Positions 18,273-25,792 of a stretch of DNA of 64,000 nt are shown piece by piece. The stretch comes from Arthrobacter sp. AQ5-06. Its GTDB lineage: Bacteria > Actinomycetota > Actinomycetes > Actinomycetales > Micrococcaceae. Within the stretch, counting starts at the first letter, position 1. Every line of letters begins with the position of its first letter. The notes beneath the pieces were generated by a model. The model saw only the letters and a program-made list of their open reading frames with translations, was not told where the DNA came from and did not search any database. The stretch covers positions 62,001 through 126,000 of the forward strand of contig NZ_QMKP01000010.1 in the NCBI RefSeq assembly GCF_003287955.1, written 5' to 3'. The position numbers and the translations under genes are program-made.

Positions 18273-18560
18273 CTAGCCTCCGGCCACCGACTGGATGACC
18301 AGCACTTCCTGCCCGGGCGACACCTCGGTTTCCAGGCCCTGGAGCCGGCGCACTTCGTCGCCAGCAACGTAAATATTCACATACCGGCGAAGTGCTCCCG
18401 TTTCGTCCCGCAGCCGCCTGGCCAGCACCGGGTAATCCCCGGTCACCGAATCCAGCAGGCTTCCCACCGTCACCGTCCCTTTGGAGGGCGCAGTCAGGAT
18501 GGACTGCCCGCCGGCCAGCGGCTGGAGGATGCTGGGAAGTACCACGCTGATGTCAGGCAC
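18273..18560 (-). CDS. MoaD/ThiS-family ubiquitin-like protein
   Basis: A 95-residue beta-grasp protein ending in ...EVLVIQSVAGG, with the terminal di-glycine used by MoaD/ThiS proteins as sulfur carriers. Other family marks are ILTAPSKGTVTVGSLLDSV and YVNIYVAGDEVRRLQGLET. The GTG at 18560 overlaps the end of the BNR-repeat gene by 8 bp, so the two are translationally coupled. No MoeB/ThiF-type activating enzyme, MoaE or JAB-type protease is nearby, so its role (molybdopterin, thiamin, another sulfur carrier, or protein tagging) cannot be told here. Confidence 0.85.
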   Translation of the reverse strand: MPDISVVLPSILQPLAGGQSILTAPSKGTVTVGSLLDSVTGDYPVLARRLRDETGALRRYVNIYVAGDEVRRLQGLETEVSPGQEVLVIQSVAGG

Positions 18561-19689
18561 CGCGGGCCGCTGACGTTTCCGGAACCGCCAGTCCCGCCCC
18601 GGAGACCACGGCGGCGCGGACACACAGGACGTCCGGGAGATGACTGACAACTTCAGCAAACGTCTCCCCTTCATCCGCGCTTGCGTACACCATGCCGCCG
18701 CGCGTTCCGAAGTAGACGCCTGCCGGTTCTGCCGAATCCACCGCTGCAGCATCCCGGAGGACGCTGTTGTACTCGTGCTCCGACAGTCCTGCATCGAGCC
18801 TCTTCCAAGTACCGCCGGCGTCGTCCGTTCGGTGCACGGCAAGCTTTCCTTCCGGCGGGATCCGCTCGCCGTCGGCCTTGAGCGGGACAACCCAGGCGGT
18901 TCCTTCCCGCCGCGGATGCGTCAGCATCACAAAACCGAAGTCGGCCGGGAGGCCTTCGGCGATGGAGTTCCAGTTTTCGCCGTTGTCATCCGTGCGGTAG
19001 ACGCCGTGATGGTTCTGCGCGTACAGCCGTCCTTCCACCGCAGCATCCGCCGCGATCTTGTGGACGCACTGGCCGAACTCAGGGTTGGGGTCCGGCATGA
19101 AGTAGGCCGAAATGCCTTTGTTGCGGGGCTCCCAGGACGCGCCGCCGTCGAGCGAGCGGTACACACCGCCGGTGCTCATGGCGACGTGGACGTTGTCCCC
19201 GGCCGGATTCACCACGATGGAGTGGGCGGCTGCGCCGCCGTAGCCCGCACCCCAGTCGCTGCGGTGAGGATGATCCCACAGCCCGCGGTTGAGTTCGAAA
19301 TGCTCGCCGCCATCGGTGGATTTCCAGACCGAAATCGGTTCGGCACCTGCCCACACCACTCCTGGCCGCGACTCTGCGTCCGGGTAGATCTGCCAGATGC
19401 GCTCCACTGCCGCGCCTGTGTCTGAGGGAAACGTGATGGCGCCCTGTTCGGGTTCGGTCCAGGTGGCGCCAAGGTCATCGGAGTGGGCCACCGTCGGGCC
19501 CCAGTGCTCGGACCTGACGCCAACCATGATCCGCGTACGGCCGTCCCGCGTGTCAATCCCGATGCTGGGGATTTCGCTCATCAGGAAATGCGGGCCGGAG
19601 AAGGACCATTGCTTCCGGTCCTGGCTGGTGGCCAGCCAGAGGCCTTTTTTGGTCCCGATCGCTAAGACATAGTTCTCTTCGGTTGCCAT
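18553..19689 (-). CDS. BNR/sortilin-type beta-propeller protein
   Basis: A 378-residue cytosolic-looking protein with no signal peptide. Repeated Asp-box-like segments (SDDLGATW, STDGGEHF, SLDGGASW, TDDNGENW, TDDAGGTW, SADEGETF) spaced about 50-60 residues apart indicate a six- or seven-bladed BNR/sialidase-type propeller. The sialidase catalytic residues are not evident, so an enzymatic role is not claimed. The ATG at 19689 (MATEENYVLAIGTKKGLW) is taken as start because the blades begin directly after it. It is coupled by an 8-bp overlap to the MoaD-like gene. Confidence 0.85.
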   Translation of the reverse strand: MATEENYVLAIGTKKGLWLATSQDRKQWSFSGPHFLMSEIPSIGIDTRDGRTRIMVGVRSEHWGPTVAHSDDLGATWTEPEQGAITFPSDTGAAVERIWQIYPDAESRPGVVWAGAEPISVWKSTDGGEHFELNRGLWDHPHRSDWGAGYGGAAAHSIVVNPAGDNVHVAMSTGGVYRSLDGGASWEPRNKGISAYFMPDPNPEFGQCVHKIAADAAVEGRLYAQNHHGVYRTDDNGENWNSIAEGLPADFGFVMLTHPRREGTAWVVPLKADGERIPPEGKLAVHRTDDAGGTWKRLDAGLSEHEYNSVLRDAAAVDSAEPAGVYFGTRGGMVYASADEGETFAEVVSHLPDVLCVRAAVVSGAGLAVPETSAARGA

Positions 19690-19792: not shown

Positions 19793-19993
19793 TCAGTCGA
19801 CGAATTCGGACTGCGTCTCAATGAAATCCCAGTCGGCTTCCGTGAGGACTGCCACCGGGGTGCCCGGATGCGGCCCGCCGGCTTCGGCGATGCCCTGCAG
19901 CACCGGGAGCGGCAGTTCCGCCGCGCGGAGGTTTTCCCGCAGCCATTCCTTAGTTTCCAGGTTCAGATCCAGCCACCACATGTAGATTTCCAT
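19793..19993 (-). CDS. Small hypothetical protein
   Basis: A 66-residue protein beginning MEIYMWWLDLNLETKEWLRENLRA and ending LTEADWDFIETQSEFVD. Composition is acidic and amphipathic, with no membrane segment. AGGTG lies 11 bases before the ATG at 19993. A longer frame adds 23 residues without protein-like character. Family not recognised. It lies about 100 bp upstream of the BNR gene on the same strand and may be co-transcribed with it. Confidence 0.55.
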   Translation of the reverse strand: MEIYMWWLDLNLETKEWLRENLRAAELPLPVLQGIAEAGGPHPGTPVAVLTEADWDFIETQSEFVD

Positions 19994-20268
19994 GCCGGTC
20001 ACGCACCTTTCGTATGCTCCAACGTTAGGCGCCGCCGTGGCCACGTTCAAGGGTGGCAACACTCCAGTAGCGGGCTCCCATTTCCGCGTACAAGCAGGTA
20101 TCGCCGCAGGTCAATGGGACAAAAAGACGAGTACACGGTACCCGCGACTGCCTCTTGCGGCCGCCCTAGCCTGAAGTGACAAGCAAGTTGACCGTGCTGC
20201 TGGGGCACTCAGAGTCACCGCTACTCCCCCTCATCATGGTTCGTTTTAGACAATCTGGGGAGAAAACA

Positions 20269-20991
20269 ATGAAACGTACCTTTGCAACACTGGGAGTTAT
20301 TGGGCTGGGGCTAATCAGTCTGACAGCACCAGCCATGGCTGCTCCTAATATGGTCACCGTCTGCCACGACGGCGCACAAACCGGAACGGGCTGGCGCGCG
20401 ATTCAATTAAACGTGAACGGCCTGGCCGGCCACGACGAGCATCCCACCGACATCATTCCGCCGAACACGTCCGTACCAGGGGGGCTGAACTGGACGAACG
20501 CCGGAAAGATAACCTATATCGCCAACTGTGCCCCGCTGCCTCCGGGTGAGGAGCCTCCGGTCTATCCGCCTGTCGACCCACCCGTCGTCGTCGTGGTCGA
20601 TCCTCCAGCCGTCGTGGTGGACCCACCCGTCGTGGTCGATCCTCCAGCCGTCGTGGTGGACCCACCCGTCGTGGTCGATCCTCCAGCCGTCGTGGTGGAC
20701 CCACCCGCCGTGGTTGAAACGCCGGTGGTTGAGTCAGCGGTCGTTGTCCAGACGCCGGTCACCACAGTCACCCCCACCGTGCAGACCCCCGCCGCACCGG
20801 CGACGGTACAGATGCCGGCCGGCACCGGGGCATCGGCTGCCAGCCAGGGCACCAACCAGGGCTTCAACGCGCAGACCGCAGTGGGCGGAGCTGAGAGTGC
20901 TCCTACCTGGCTCGCGGGCCTGGGCGTGATGCTCGGCGCCGGTGCACTGGTGGCCGTGCGCCGCAGGTCCCTGGAACCAAAGGCAGACTAG
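20269..20991 (+). CDS. Secreted VVDPP-repeat surface protein with C-terminal membrane anchor
   Basis: A 240-residue exported protein. The signal peptide MKRTFATLGVIGLGLISLTAPAMA is cleaved before APNMVT. A globular part of about 60 residues has two cysteines (VTVCHDG and IANCAPL) that could pair. A Pro/Val-rich stalk (residues about 100-165) is built from VVDPPAV-type repeats, then a Thr/Pro/Gln-rich linker. The C-terminus is a membrane helix (LAGLGVMLGAGALVAV) with an RRRSLEPKAD tail, the layout of a sortase substrate, but no LPxTG is visible ahead of the helix. GGGGAG precedes the ATG. A sortase gene follows downstream. Confidence 0.8.
   Translation: MKRTFATLGVIGLGLISLTAPAMAAPNMVTVCHDGAQTGTGWRAIQLNVNGLAGHDEHPTDIIPPNTSVPGGLNWTNAGKITYIANCAPLPPGEEPPVYPPVDPPVVVVVDPPAVVVDPPVVVDPPAVVVDPPVVVDPPAVVVDPPAVVETPVVESAVVVQTPVTTVTPTVQTPAAPATVQMPAGTGASAASQGTNQGFNAQTAVGGAESAPTWLAGLGVMLGAGALVAVRRRSLEPKAD
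20595..20711 (+). repeat. 39-bp in-frame tandem repeat (VVDPP stalk)
   Basis: Three near-perfect copies of a 39-bp unit encoding VVDPPAVVVDPPV. At this level of DNA identity the unit could expand or contract by slippage, which would change stalk length. The last copy diverges (PPAVVETPV). Confidence 0.9.
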
Positions 20992-22730: not shown

Positions 22731-23078
22731 ATGGAAACATCGCAGGAAACCTTGGCCACATCCACTGGTGCCGCCCCGGCGCCTTCGCATGGCTACACGG
22801 CGAACAAAGAGGCATACCTGCGCAGGCTCAAGCGCATCGAGGGCCAGGTCCGCGGCATCGCCCGGATGGTGGATGAGGACAAATACTGCATCGACATCCT
22901 GACCCAGGTCTCCGCGGTCACCAAAGCGCTTCACGCCGTGAGCCTGGGGCTCGTGGAGGAGCACATCGGCCACTGCGTAGTGGGTGCCGCCGCGGAACCT
23001 GACCCTGACCTTCGCGCTGAAGCCATCGACGTCAAAGTCAAGGAAGCGGCAGAGGCCATCGGCCGTCTCCTGCGCTGA
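22731..23078 (+). CDS. csoR: Copper-sensing repressor CsoR
   Basis: A 115-residue four-helix-type repressor of the CsoR/RcnR family. The copper ligands are visible: Cys in DKYCIDIL (about residue 58), His in KALHAVSLG (about residue 83) and Cys in IGHCVVGA (about residue 92). The helix YLRRLKRIEGQVRGIARMV is the family's DNA-contacting N-terminal helix. An N-terminal tail of about 25 residues is extra. Cu(I) binding should release the two palindromes immediately upstream and induce copZ and copA. First gene of the operon. Confidence 0.93.
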   Translation: METSQETLATSTGAAPAPSHGYTANKEAYLRRLKRIEGQVRGIARMVDEDKYCIDILTQVSAVTKALHAVSLGLVEEHIGHCVVGAAAEPDPDLRAEAIDVKVKEAAEAIGRLLR

Positions 23079-23146
23079 GCACCGCCCACTGACAAGCGAA
23101 CACCCATCAGGCCGGCCACCGCCGGTCCCCTTCAAAGGAGCCCGCC

Positions 23147-23377
23147 ATGAGTACCACCTCCACCACCGTCAATGTGTCCGGTATGACCTGCGGCCACTGC
23201 ATTTCGTCTGTCAGCGAGGAACTTGAATCGCTCGCCGGGGTCGAAACGATCGACGTCGACCTCAACGCCGGGGGCATTTCCACCGTCACCATCACCTCAA
23301 GCCAGGAGCTGTCGCCGTCCGAGATCGGCGAAGCGGTCGCCGAAGCCGGCTACCTGGTTGTTGCCAACGACGCGTAA
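23147..23377 (+). CDS. copZ: Copper chaperone, HMA domain
   Basis: A 76-residue heavy-metal-associated protein with the metal site GMTCGHC near residues 13-19 and the ferredoxin-like beta-alpha-beta-beta-alpha-beta pattern (VETIDVDLNAGGISTVTI). It would carry Cu(I) to the CopA ATPase. AAAGGAG lies upstream of the ATG. It is 68 bp after csoR and 24 bp before copA. Confidence 0.94.
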   Translation: MSTTSTTVNVSGMTCGHCISSVSEELESLAGVETIDVDLNAGGISTVTITSSQELSPSEIGEAVAEAGYLVVANDA

Positions 23378-23401
23378 CGCTGTCCGATCGGGGATCCCAT
23401 C

Positions 23402-25792
23402 ATGAGCACAGACCATCTCCGTCACCAGACCCAAATCCGGGTGGTTGAACTGGACATTGAGGGCATGACCTGCGCCTCCTGCGTGAACCGCGTGGAAAAG
23501 AAGCTAGGCAAGCTCGACGGCGTCGAAGCCTCCGTTAACCTCCCGCTGGAATCGGCCCACGTCACCGTCCCGGCCGGCATCACGGACCAGCAGATTGTGG
23601 ACGCCGTCAACGCCACGGGCTACAAGGCAACGGTCCGCCTCCCGCGCTATCCGAGCCAAAGTTCCGGCCACGGAACCGACACGCTCGGCCGCCGGGTAGG
23701 AACGGGCGAGCATGCCGCGCATAACGCCGATGGCGCCGCGCCTGGTGACTACCTGCAACACGGCGGGACCGCTGGCACGCCCAGCCACATGTCCCACGGC
23801 CCCGCCGCAGCCCAGCTGAGGCCAAGACTGCTGCTCGCCGCGGCGCTTACCCTCCCCGTCCTTGCGATTTCGATGGTTCCGGCACTGCAGTTTCCCAACT
23901 GGGGCTGGGTAGCCGGGGCCTTGGCACTTCCGGTAGTCAGCTGGGCGGCCTGGCCCTTCCACCGCGCTGCGGCCGTCAATGCGCGCCACCTGGCGTCCAC
24001 CATGGACACGCTGGTGTCGATTGGCGTCGCTGCCGCCTACGCCTTCAGCGTGTGGCAACTCGCCATCGATCCCAGCATGACCGAGCAGCCGGCCATGGCC
24101 GGAATGGAGTCCGCCGGCCTCTACTTCGAAGTGGCCGCCGTGGTCACCACCTTCCTGCTCCTGGGCCGGTTCCTCGAAGCCAACGCGAAGCAAAAGGCCG
24201 GCGACGCCCTCAAGGCGTTGCTGAACCTCGGAGCCAAGGACGCCACCATCCTTCACCACGGCTCCGAACATAAAGTCCCCGCCGATCAGCTCCGCGTGGG
24301 AGACGTCGTGGTGGTCCGCCCCGGCGAAAAAATCGCCACGGACGGAGAGGTGATCGACGGGATTTCAGCTGTGGACGCGTCCCTGCTGACCGGCGAATCC
24401 GTCCCGGTGGAGGTGGAGCCCGGGAGCAAAGTCACCGGCGCCACCATCAACACTTCCGGCCGGCTGCTGGTCCGGGCCACACGCGTGGGCTCCGAAACCA
24501 CGCTGGCACAGATGGCCCGGCTGGTCTCGCAGGCGCAGACCGGCAAAGCCCCCATCGCCCGCCTCGCCGACCGGATCAGCGCCGTCTTTGTCCCCATAGT
24601 TCTTGCCCTCGCCGTGCTCACGTTTGCGCTGTGGCTCGCCTTCAGTGGTCAGGTGATTGAGCCTGCCGAGCTCAGGGCCGCTTTTACCGCCGCAGTCACT
24701 GTCCTGGTCATCGCTTGCCCGTGCGCCCTGGGGCTTGCCACTCCCGTGGGACTGCTCACCGGAACCGGCCGGGGAGCCCAGTTGGGCATCCTGATTAAGG
24801 GCCCGCAGGTCCTCGAAGACACCCGCACGGTGGACACCATCCTGCTCGACAAGACCGGCACCGTCACCACCGGAAAACTCGCCGTGGGCAACACTCTCGC
24901 GTTTGACGGTTACCAGGGCGAGGAAGTGCTGCGGCTCGCCGGCGCCGTCGAAGCAGCATCGGAGCACCCGATCGCACACGCCATCGCGGCCGCGGCTGTT
25001 GCGGCGCAAACAGGGCACGACGACGGCGGGCGGCTCCCCGCCGTCGAACACTTCCGTTCGGCACCAGGCGGCGGAGTGGTGGGAACCGCTGAAGGGCGAG
25101 TGATCCTGGCGGGCCGCACCGGCTGGCTCACGGAGAATAGCGTCCGCCCTTCCGGCACGCAGATGGAGGCGCTGGCCGAGGCGGAAGCCACCGGCGCCAC
25201 GGCCATCTGGGTGGCGGTGGACGGCACCCCTGCCGGAATCATCAGTCTCCGCGACACCGTGAAGCCGGGATCCTCGGAAGCTGTGGCAAAGCTAAAGAAG
25301 CTCGGGTTGCGCCCCATTCTGCTGACCGGGGACAACGCCGCGGTGGCCGCGCAGGTCGCTGCCGCCGTCGGCATTTCCCACGACGATGTTTATGCGGGTG
25401 TTCTGCCTGCCGGGAAGGTCGACGCCGTCCGTCGGCTCCAGGCGGGCGGGGCCATTGTGGCGATGGCCGGCGACGGCGTGAATGACGCCGCCGCGCTGGC
25501 GCAGGCTGACCTGGGCATCGCCATGGGATCCGGTACCGATGTGGCCATCGAGGCGGCGGACCTCACCGTCATGGGCAATGACTTGGGACAGGTGGCACAG
25601 GCCATCGAATTGTCCCGGCGGACGCTGGCCACCATCAAGACCAACCTGTTCTGGGCGTTCTTCTATAACGCCATCGGCATTCCCGTGGCCGCCCTGGGCC
25701 TTTTGAACCCGATGATTGCCGGTGCCGCGATGGCGGCGAGTTCCGTCCTGGTGGTGGCCAACTCGCTCCGACTGCGCAGCTTCGGCAAGTAG
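23402..25792 (+). CDS. copA: Cu(I)-exporting P1B-type ATPase
   Basis: A 796-residue copper efflux ATPase. One HMA domain with GMTCASC (residues 21-27), then a His-rich linker (residues about 90-140, HGTDTLG, EHAAHNADG, QHGG, MSHGP). Membrane part with the transport motif CPCALGLATP (about residue 440); actuator motif TGES; phosphorylation motif DKTGT (about residue 483); SEHPIAHAI and GDGVNDAAAL in the nucleotide/P domains. All catalytic motifs are intact. Expressed with copZ under CsoR. The His-rich linker may add a second metal-binding region. Confidence 0.95.
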   Translation: MSTDHLRHQTQIRVVELDIEGMTCASCVNRVEKKLGKLDGVEASVNLPLESAHVTVPAGITDQQIVDAVNATGYKATVRLPRYPSQSSGHGTDTLGRRVGTGEHAAHNADGAAPGDYLQHGGTAGTPSHMSHGPAAAQLRPRLLLAAALTLPVLAISMVPALQFPNWGWVAGALALPVVSWAAWPFHRAAAVNARHLASTMDTLVSIGVAAAYAFSVWQLAIDPSMTEQPAMAGMESAGLYFEVAAVVTTFLLLGRFLEANAKQKAGDALKALLNLGAKDATILHHGSEHKVPADQLRVGDVVVVRPGEKIATDGEVIDGISAVDASLLTGESVPVEVEPGSKVTGATINTSGRLLVRATRVGSETTLAQMARLVSQAQTGKAPIARLADRISAVFVPIVLALAVLTFALWLAFSGQVIEPAELRAAFTAAVTVLVIACPCALGLATPVGLLTGTGRGAQLGILIKGPQVLEDTRTVDTILLDKTGTVTTGKLAVGNTLAFDGYQGEEVLRLAGAVEAASEHPIAHAIAAAAVAAQTGHDDGGRLPAVEHFRSAPGGGVVGTAEGRVILAGRTGWLTENSVRPSGTQMEALAEAEATGATAIWVAVDGTPAGIISLRDTVKPGSSEAVAKLKKLGLRPILLTGDNAAVAAQVAAAVGISHDDVYAGVLPAGKVDAVRRLQAGGAIVAMAGDGVNDAAALAQADLGIAMGSGTDVAIEAADLTVMGNDLGQVAQAIELSRRTLATIKTNLFWAFFYNAIGIPVAALGLLNPMIAGAAMAASSVLVVANSLRLRSFGK

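Follow-up and report, generated by a model that had tools for sequence, protein, structure and literature searches.

An old and widespread gene pair joins a putative CysO-like sulfur carrier to a seven-bladed Asp-box propeller

Why a small ubiquitin-like protein ending in two glycines should be encoded in overlap with a β-propeller is the question raised by a locus of Arthrobacter sp. AQ5-06, contained in the 64,000-nucleotide stretch of DNA analysed here (the window). The two genes are on the minus strand, with the propeller gene first and the small carrier gene after it, and their reading frames overlap by 8 bp at 18553-18560, as the preliminary description had it. The propeller frame runs from an ATG at 19689 to a stop codon that ends at 18553 and encodes 378 amino acids; the carrier frame runs from a GTG at 18560 to a stop codon at 18273-18275 and encodes 95 amino acids, with the C-terminus ...VLVIQSVAGG. 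On our reading of its N-terminus, which bears no evident signal peptide, the propeller is probably cytosolic. The features that the argument draws on are these:

18273..18560, minus strand: putative CysO-like sulfur-carrier protein of the ThiS/MoaD family, 95 aa, GTG start (Pfam ThiS, CysO structures, β-grasp model)
18276..18281, minus strand: codons of the C-terminal Gly94-Gly95, invariant in a 31-row alignment
18553..18560, minus strand: 8-bp overlap of the carrier and propeller reading frames (start and stop positions)
18553..19689, minus strand: seven-bladed Asp-box (BNR) β-propeller of the PDB 3b7f family, 378 aa (Pfam BNR, 3b7f, Foldseek)
19009..19062, minus strand: subset of invariant propeller residues from His210 (19060-19062) to His227 (19009-19011), with Gln225 between, each in 85/85 propellers
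19222..19224, minus strand: codon of the invariant His156 (85/85 aligned propellers)
19645..19647, minus strand: codon of Lys15, the sole near-invariant lysine of the propeller (83/85 aligned propellers)

The window neighbours scanned with Pfam comprise MFS, DNA ligase, Usp and metal repressor matches together with open reading frames without a hit; a linked PLP cysteine synthase, as in the CysO/CysM pathway, was not found among them. The earlier statement that no MoaE, ThiG, E1 or JAB gene lies nearby is right for the window, and all of these occur elsewhere in the genome; a sub-cut-off ThiF match (22 bits, C1:75409) inside the window was left uncounted. About 100 bp upstream of the propeller, an 89-aa open frame (19793-20062, minus strand) has no Pfam match and was not seen as a wide neighbour of the pair. 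The frame at 20176-20991 (plus strand), likewise free of Pfam matches, encodes proline/valine-rich repeat units (VVVDPPAVVVDPP...) and, C-terminally, a hydrophobic stretch; its product has the look of a protein that is secreted or exposed at the surface. At 22731-25792 (plus strand), a metal-sensitive transcriptional repressor (Pfam PF02583) comes before two frames judged by their sequence, one for a small metal-binding-like protein and one of 796 aa that is P-type-ATPase-like; together they are a probable copper-export cluster.

With the carrier as query, the propeller was found directly upstream at 80/80 Arthrobacter-group loci, all of them close relatives, and all 80 carriers end in VAGG; an in-frame start makes the same 8-bp overlap possible in 41/80, and in most of the others the gap between the genes ranges from a few bases to a few tens. 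A sample of 198 genomes of the order holds the propeller in 23, a carrier recognized by the clade profile in 26 and both in 22, the two genes being always adjacent in these 22 genomes with the carrier downstream (co-occurrence table 22/1/4/171, Fisher p 4e-24, a statistic that ignores kinship). The 23rd propeller genome (G324, locus L294) also has an adjacent carrier, recovered by a second profile, which brings the pairing to 23/23; re-scanned with this second profile, 22 order loci (the window's own excluded) all have carriers ending exactly in Gly-Gly. Across the phylum, 80/296 sampled genomes have a propeller match. These provided 88 propeller places outside the window's own genome, 80 of which were fetched; the eight omitted were seven weak paralogues and a fragment in G245 that does adjoin a carrier. 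After exclusion of five fetched loci whose propellers score 51-66 bits and lack a carrier, 61/75 strong loci are linked, with the carrier downstream in 33, upstream in 16 and fused to the propeller in 12. The 14 unlinked strong loci are eight of a Streptomyces-like family (f5), five of family f45 and one at a contig end, where the label “Streptomyces-like” leans partly on the named plasmid record L210, which groups there in the propeller tree.

The preliminary description had left it to be checked whether the pairing is conserved across actinobacteria or whether the two genes usually lie apart. The phylum-wide count speaks for conservation, and the reach of the pair exceeds the actinobacteria. 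Among 12 plasmid records fetched out of 25 (ten from Pseudomonadota, one from Streptomyces and one from Nonomuraea), 7/10 Pseudomonadota loci have a carrier upstream, all ending in x-Gly-Gly; three Rhodobacterales loci lack it, as does the Streptomyces plasmid (L210), for a total of 4/12 unlinked plasmid loci. The genes are thus paired, rather than usually apart, in the close relatives (80/80), the order (23/23), the phylum (61/75) and the Pseudomonadota plasmids (7/10). The plasmid-borne pairs (L203, L205, L207, L208, L212, L213, L214) have the reversed gene order and sit on large plasmids or secondary replicons of Pseudomonadota, one of them on a Pseudomonas aeruginosa plasmid. A search of viral contigs for the pair returned one pattern match and no relative.

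The arrangement of the pair has changed repeatedly. Mapped onto an 85-row propeller tree, it (downstream, upstream, fused or none) must have changed at least seven times, the fused state alone needing two changes and the absence of a carrier alone four; because of these changes, the link between carrier and propeller can be said to have outlived rearrangement. The pair is real, old and widespread, and the functional link between its members is strongly supported by its survival through gene-order changes and fusion and by near-perfect co-occurrence in the order. When the 924 genes called at 85 loci (L121-L200 plus five of the 80 Arthrobacter-group loci) were compared all against all, no third gene proved as widespread as the propeller; the neighbour cluster that ranks next spans 22 loci and looks like a mixed superfamily. 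No E1, E2 or JAB gene recurred as a neighbour of the pair at these 85 loci, and small third partners could be missed because the crude gene caller required 70 aa and codon bias.

The Gly-Gly motif accompanies the link. Outside the Arthrobacter-group set it is present in 67/69 linked carriers, at the exact C-terminus in 39, followed by 1-5 extra residues in 15, with one longer tail, and internal in 12/12 fusions; the stop codon lies 0 to 5 residues away in 54/55 two-gene forms that keep the motif. Of the two carriers without it, one is truncated by a contig end and the other comes from Nonomuraea. The linked carrier of Nonomuraea gerenzanensis (L211:5084-5380) ends in PALA, which may reflect a lost tail, a frame error or a carrier-free partner role. 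In all 12 fusions the carrier is N-terminal to the propeller and Gly-Gly is retained inside the chain. The fused chains (L142, L143, L144, L145, L147, L148, L149, L150, L159, L161, L168, L170) have an internal Ile/Val-Ser-Gly-Gly. Within the clade that holds both fused and upstream forms, the boundary falls at Gly-Gly: upstream genes end 0-5 residues past it, apart from one longer tail, and fused chains continue. A precedent is MoaX of Mycobacterium tuberculosis, which is reported to be cut between Gly82 and Ser83 and to need both glycines for function (PMC4326299). By analogy, the natural fusions are candidates for MoaX-like processing, and we infer that the fused carrier-propellers would be cut after Gly-Gly.

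To which family the carrier belongs was addressed by profiles, structures and a model. It matches Pfam ThiS at 35.4 bits (cut-off 22.5). Among solved chains it is closest to CysO of M. tuberculosis (3dwg, E 9e-13) and to the CysO of Amycolatopsis (4n6e, E 1.6e-9), with next in line a Thermus MoaD-related protein, a molybdopterin converting factor subunit (2m19) and SAMP1. A model built from 29 Arthrobacter-group sequences, close relatives only, adopts a β-grasp with a pLDDT of 82 that falls to about 50 over the last five residues, and its top Foldseek matches are 3dwg, 3dwm and 4n6e, with CysO first (E 6.5e-7). The β-grasp fold, the C-terminal Gly-Gly and the presence of an E1-type enzyme in the cell place the protein, as a putative carrier, with the ThiS/MoaD/CysO sulfur carriers. 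Three narrower assignments were rejected: i) MoaD of Moco synthesis, for the cell has its own moaD/moaA/moaE on contig C11 and the pair is linked neither to MoaE nor to Moco genes, ii) CysO of the CysM pathway, for no PLP cysteine synthase was found among the window neighbours scanned, and iii) the SAMP1 equivalog (NCBIfam NF041918), against which the carrier scores 50 bits where the curated cut-off is 60. The label “MoaD” of the preliminary description therefore needs narrowing: membership of the ThiS/MoaD family stands, and identity with true moaD does not. In a carrier tree of 96 rows and 94 columns, from which four linked carriers were omitted as partial or weak, monophyly of the propeller-linked carriers is neither supported nor rejected (p-AU 0.83); the tree is short and badly resolved because it has too few columns.

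The rest of the genome was queried for what could charge such a carrier. It has three ThiS-family matches only, of which the window carrier is the third, separate from MoaD and ThiS. The first paralogue adjoins a gene read as moaA-like, with MoaE 5 kb away (C11); the second adjoins ThiG, with a ThiF+rhodanese (MoeZ-like) protein near (C2). With all three matches accounted for, no CysO-CysM pair was seen in the genome. Leaving aside a CBASS operon, there is no good E1 but the MoeZ-like protein. That operon (L275:2808-7119, on contig C2 of the same genome, G000, outside the window) encodes a CD-NTase (SMODS), a fused E1-E2 and a JAB-TIR-SAVED effector. Both the second good E1 of the genome and its single Prok-JAB match lie in this operon; a dedicated conjugation system made up of this second E1 and JAB was considered and rejected on the Pfam and PADLOC assignments of CD-NTase, E1-E2 and JAB-TIR-SAVED. 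Since the only other good E1 belongs to CBASS, the MoeZ-like protein is the candidate charger, if the carrier is charged at all. Among 30 pair-bearing genomes picked by hand, a ThiF protein is present in 30/30 and a Prok-JAB match in 23/30, none having been found in the other 7/30. Those without a match are 7/8 tested genomes of the window's order, and 22/22 tested outside the order have one. A Prok-JAB match occurs in 14/14 genomes with tailed or fused carriers vs 9/16 with exact Gly-Gly (Fisher p 0.007), a trend that kinship may explain, because all seven genomes without a match belong to the window's order, and that was kept out of the supporting evidence.

The propeller matches Pfam BNR at 43.4 bits (cut-off 27) and Sortilin-Vps10 at 37.3 bits (cut-off 33), and has one sequence match in the PDB, 3b7f from Ralstonia eutropha (YP_299179.1, reut_b4987; E 7e-71). 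The similarity is full-length (residues 8-360, 353 residues), and the alignment with 3b7f shows the invariant residues. In a 2009 survey of Asp-box propellers, 3b7f is listed as seven-bladed with the function “Not known”, and the passages on it there mention no link to a carrier (PMC2716378). A low-confidence model of the window propeller (pLDDT 62.8, top Foldseek match 3b7f), built from close relatives only, was used only for strand positions. An alignment of 85 rows (the window, 73 phylum loci and 11 plasmid loci, with L177 and L188 omitted as partial or at a contig end and L214 for its split reading frame) contains eleven polar or aromatic residues outside the Asp boxes that are conserved in at least 83/85 propellers. 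Eight of them, namely Trp99, Trp146, His156, Ser172, His210, Gln225, His227 and Arg312, occur in 85/85; Thr13 and Arg232 occur in 84/85 and Lys15 in 83/85.

In the propeller topology, the starts of the inner strands and the B-C turns face the same side. Judged from the modelled strand positions, most of the invariant residues would lie on one face, at inner-strand starts or B-C turns; Trp99 falls in a stretch of the model with pLDDT <50 and Trp146 between two such stretches. The FRIP motif, which marks sialidases, has no likeness in any of the propellers (0/85), and of the acids outside the Asp boxes none is invariant, the best being D273 (74/85) and D318 (73/85). This casts doubt on the sialidase and hydrolase names that databases give to the family. 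In unlinked propellers the residue set is retained, and at the thresholds applied only positions 122 and 162 differ, in a comparison of 16 unlinked rows that includes L193 (linked in fact) and omits L210 (unlinked); the putative pocket therefore needs no adjoining carrier gene.

The reading that we regard as marginally probable is that the pair forms a two-protein sulfur-delivery module, in which a CysO-type carrier is charged by a MoeZ-type E1 and the propeller is the acceptor-side partner. The MoeZ-type E1-rhodanese would adenylate the C-terminal glycine of the carrier and convert it to a thiocarboxylate. In fused or tailed forms, a protease would first cut after Gly-Gly, as in MoaX. The Gly-Gly tail would then enter the mouth of the propeller's central channel, where a predicted pocket of His156, His210, His227, Gln225, Ser172, Trp99, Trp146 and Arg312, with the near-invariant Lys15, may hold the tail and a small substrate or metal, and sulfur would pass from the carrier to the bound substrate. 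Directly established among these elements are the existence and age of the pair, its occurrence as a fusion, the retained Gly-Gly, the presence of an E1 and the invariant residues; the thiocarboxylate, the substrate and the contact between carrier and propeller are what we infer. Counting against the reading are the loci that lack a linked carrier (14/75 strong phylum loci and 4/12 plasmid loci), given that unlinked propellers retain the residue set, and the linked Nonomuraea carrier that ends in PALA. Between the two roles that the preliminary description had offered for the propeller, partner of a sulfur carrier or target of a tag, the former has proved the better half, with CysO of M. tuberculosis and Amycolatopsis as the nearest solved relatives and an internal Gly-Gly in the fusions that matches that of the cleaved MoaX. 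A more specific form of the proposal is possible and is put forward tentatively: the propeller would itself be an enzyme with a protein thiocarboxylate as sulfur donor, its cluster of His156, His210 and His227, perhaps metal-binding, passing sulfur to a metabolite or cofactor.

Genomes with an unlinked propeller bear on who uses these carriers. In them, carriers of the same clade adjoin two kinds of PLP enzyme, and operons that combine ThiS/MoaD proteins with cysteine synthase and JAB have been published (PMC1779556). As carriers of the clade thus adjoin their likely users, the propeller would be the user of the window carrier. In Streptomyces-like genomes, two further clade carriers lie beside PLP enzymes (L246:149-1773 and L261:1498-2729), one of them threonine-synthase-like and one cysteine-synthase-like by sequence. 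Other carriers of the clade are held by 13/13 tested genomes with an unlinked propeller, and we would guess that Streptomyces-type genomes serve the propeller by these in trans.

The strongest rival to sulfur delivery, although an unlikely one, is that the propeller is a non-covalent receptor of the Gly-Gly tail and that the complex scaffolds, regulates or assists folding, with no sulfur chemistry involved. It ranks first among the rivals because sortilin and Ycf48 propellers bind peptide tails: the sortilin propeller reportedly binds the C-terminal tail of progranulin (PMC3115958), and YCF48 was solved with a bound D1 peptide. Fusions with an internal Gly-Gly would then need no cleavage. However, a tail receptor explains neither the exact Gly-Gly of sulfur carriers, nor the stop codon so close to it in nearly all two-gene forms (0 to 5 residues, 54/55), nor the His/Gln/Arg/Lys set of the propeller.

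That the β-grasp protein is instead conjugated to lysines in the manner of SAMPs, with the propeller as main target or ligase-like partner, is improbable, and tagging of the propeller is less likely than sulfur delivery. The carrier does score 50 bits against the NCBIfam SAMP1 model and Lys15 is near invariant (83/85), but this score is below the curated cut-off of 60, CysO is closer than SAMP1, none of the recurrent neighbours of the pair is E2- or JAB-like, and JAB was not found in 7/30 pair-bearing genomes. The tagging-target half of the preliminary description has gained no positive evidence, with K15 as the single conserved propeller lysine and no E1, E2 or JAB gene as a recurrent neighbour.

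Mec+ acts on the amide at the C-terminus of CysO, and the propeller could by comparison be a processing or unloading enzyme that hydrolyses the carrier thiocarboxylate or a C-terminal amide, releasing sulfide or a small thiol compound. Three invariant histidines with Gln and Arg would suit a metal or acid-base hydrolytic site, and 7/8 tested pair-bearing genomes of the window's order gave no Prok-JAB match; yet 22/22 tested pair-bearing genomes outside the order have such a match and a metal in the propeller is only putative, and we consider this role quite improbable. Very improbable is a sialidase or other glycoside hydrolase with an incidental carrier neighbour, which has the database names exo-alpha-sialidase and glycosyl hydrolase on its side, and against it a FRIP-like motif in 0/85 propellers, no acid outside the Asp boxes conserved beyond 74/85, and linkage and fusion far in excess of chance.

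How does a sulfur-delivery module of this kind compare with known systems? The known acceptors of protein thiocarboxylate carriers are a handful: thiazole, molybdopterin, cysteine, thiosugars and tRNA. In Amycolatopsis orientalis the carriers form a shared pool, and BexX is a thiosugar enzyme related to ThiG and not a propeller. The BexX/CysO complex of this organism (PDB 4n6e) resembles the pair in that a CysO-type carrier is bound to an acceptor enzyme. CysO of M. tuberculosis, which works with CysM and Mec+, is nearest to the window carrier by sequence and fold and ends in AGG, and its gene adjoins that of an acceptor enzyme (PMC1779556), as the window carrier adjoins the propeller; the partner is a PLP cysteine synthase there and a propeller here, where no Mec+ gene adjoins. 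MoaD-MoaE and the fused MoaX likewise combine a carrier with a partner, also by N-terminal fusion with an internal Gly-Gly, whereas MoaE is unrelated to the propeller and the window genome has its own moaD/moaA/moaE elsewhere. On the propeller side, sortilin Vps10 and Ycf48 are Asp-box propellers too; theirs hold peptide tails and are not known to be linked to sulfur carriers, and sortilin has ten blades vs the seven of 3b7f (PMC2716378).

Literature searches found no paper on a MoaD/ThiS protein paired with a BNR or sialidase-like propeller. The conserved carrier, with the propeller as its only recurring partner, names a new acceptor protein and offers a function for 3b7f, a structural-genomics orphan released in 2007; it also suggests that the labels “exo-alpha-sialidase” and “glycosyl hydrolase” on the propeller family are wrong. 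The fusions and the loci without a linked carrier are natural tests of how carrier, partner and Gly-Gly processing evolved. If the enzyme proposal is true, the propellers would constitute a class of sulfur-transfer enzyme not described so far, spread over at least two phyla and sometimes made as a self-contained fusion cut after Gly-Gly. Set beside CysO-CysM, MoaD-MoaE and BexX/CysO, carrier-partner modules are known and the propeller as partner is, as far as searched, new; its old and widespread pairing suggests a so far undescribed user of protein-delivered sulfur.
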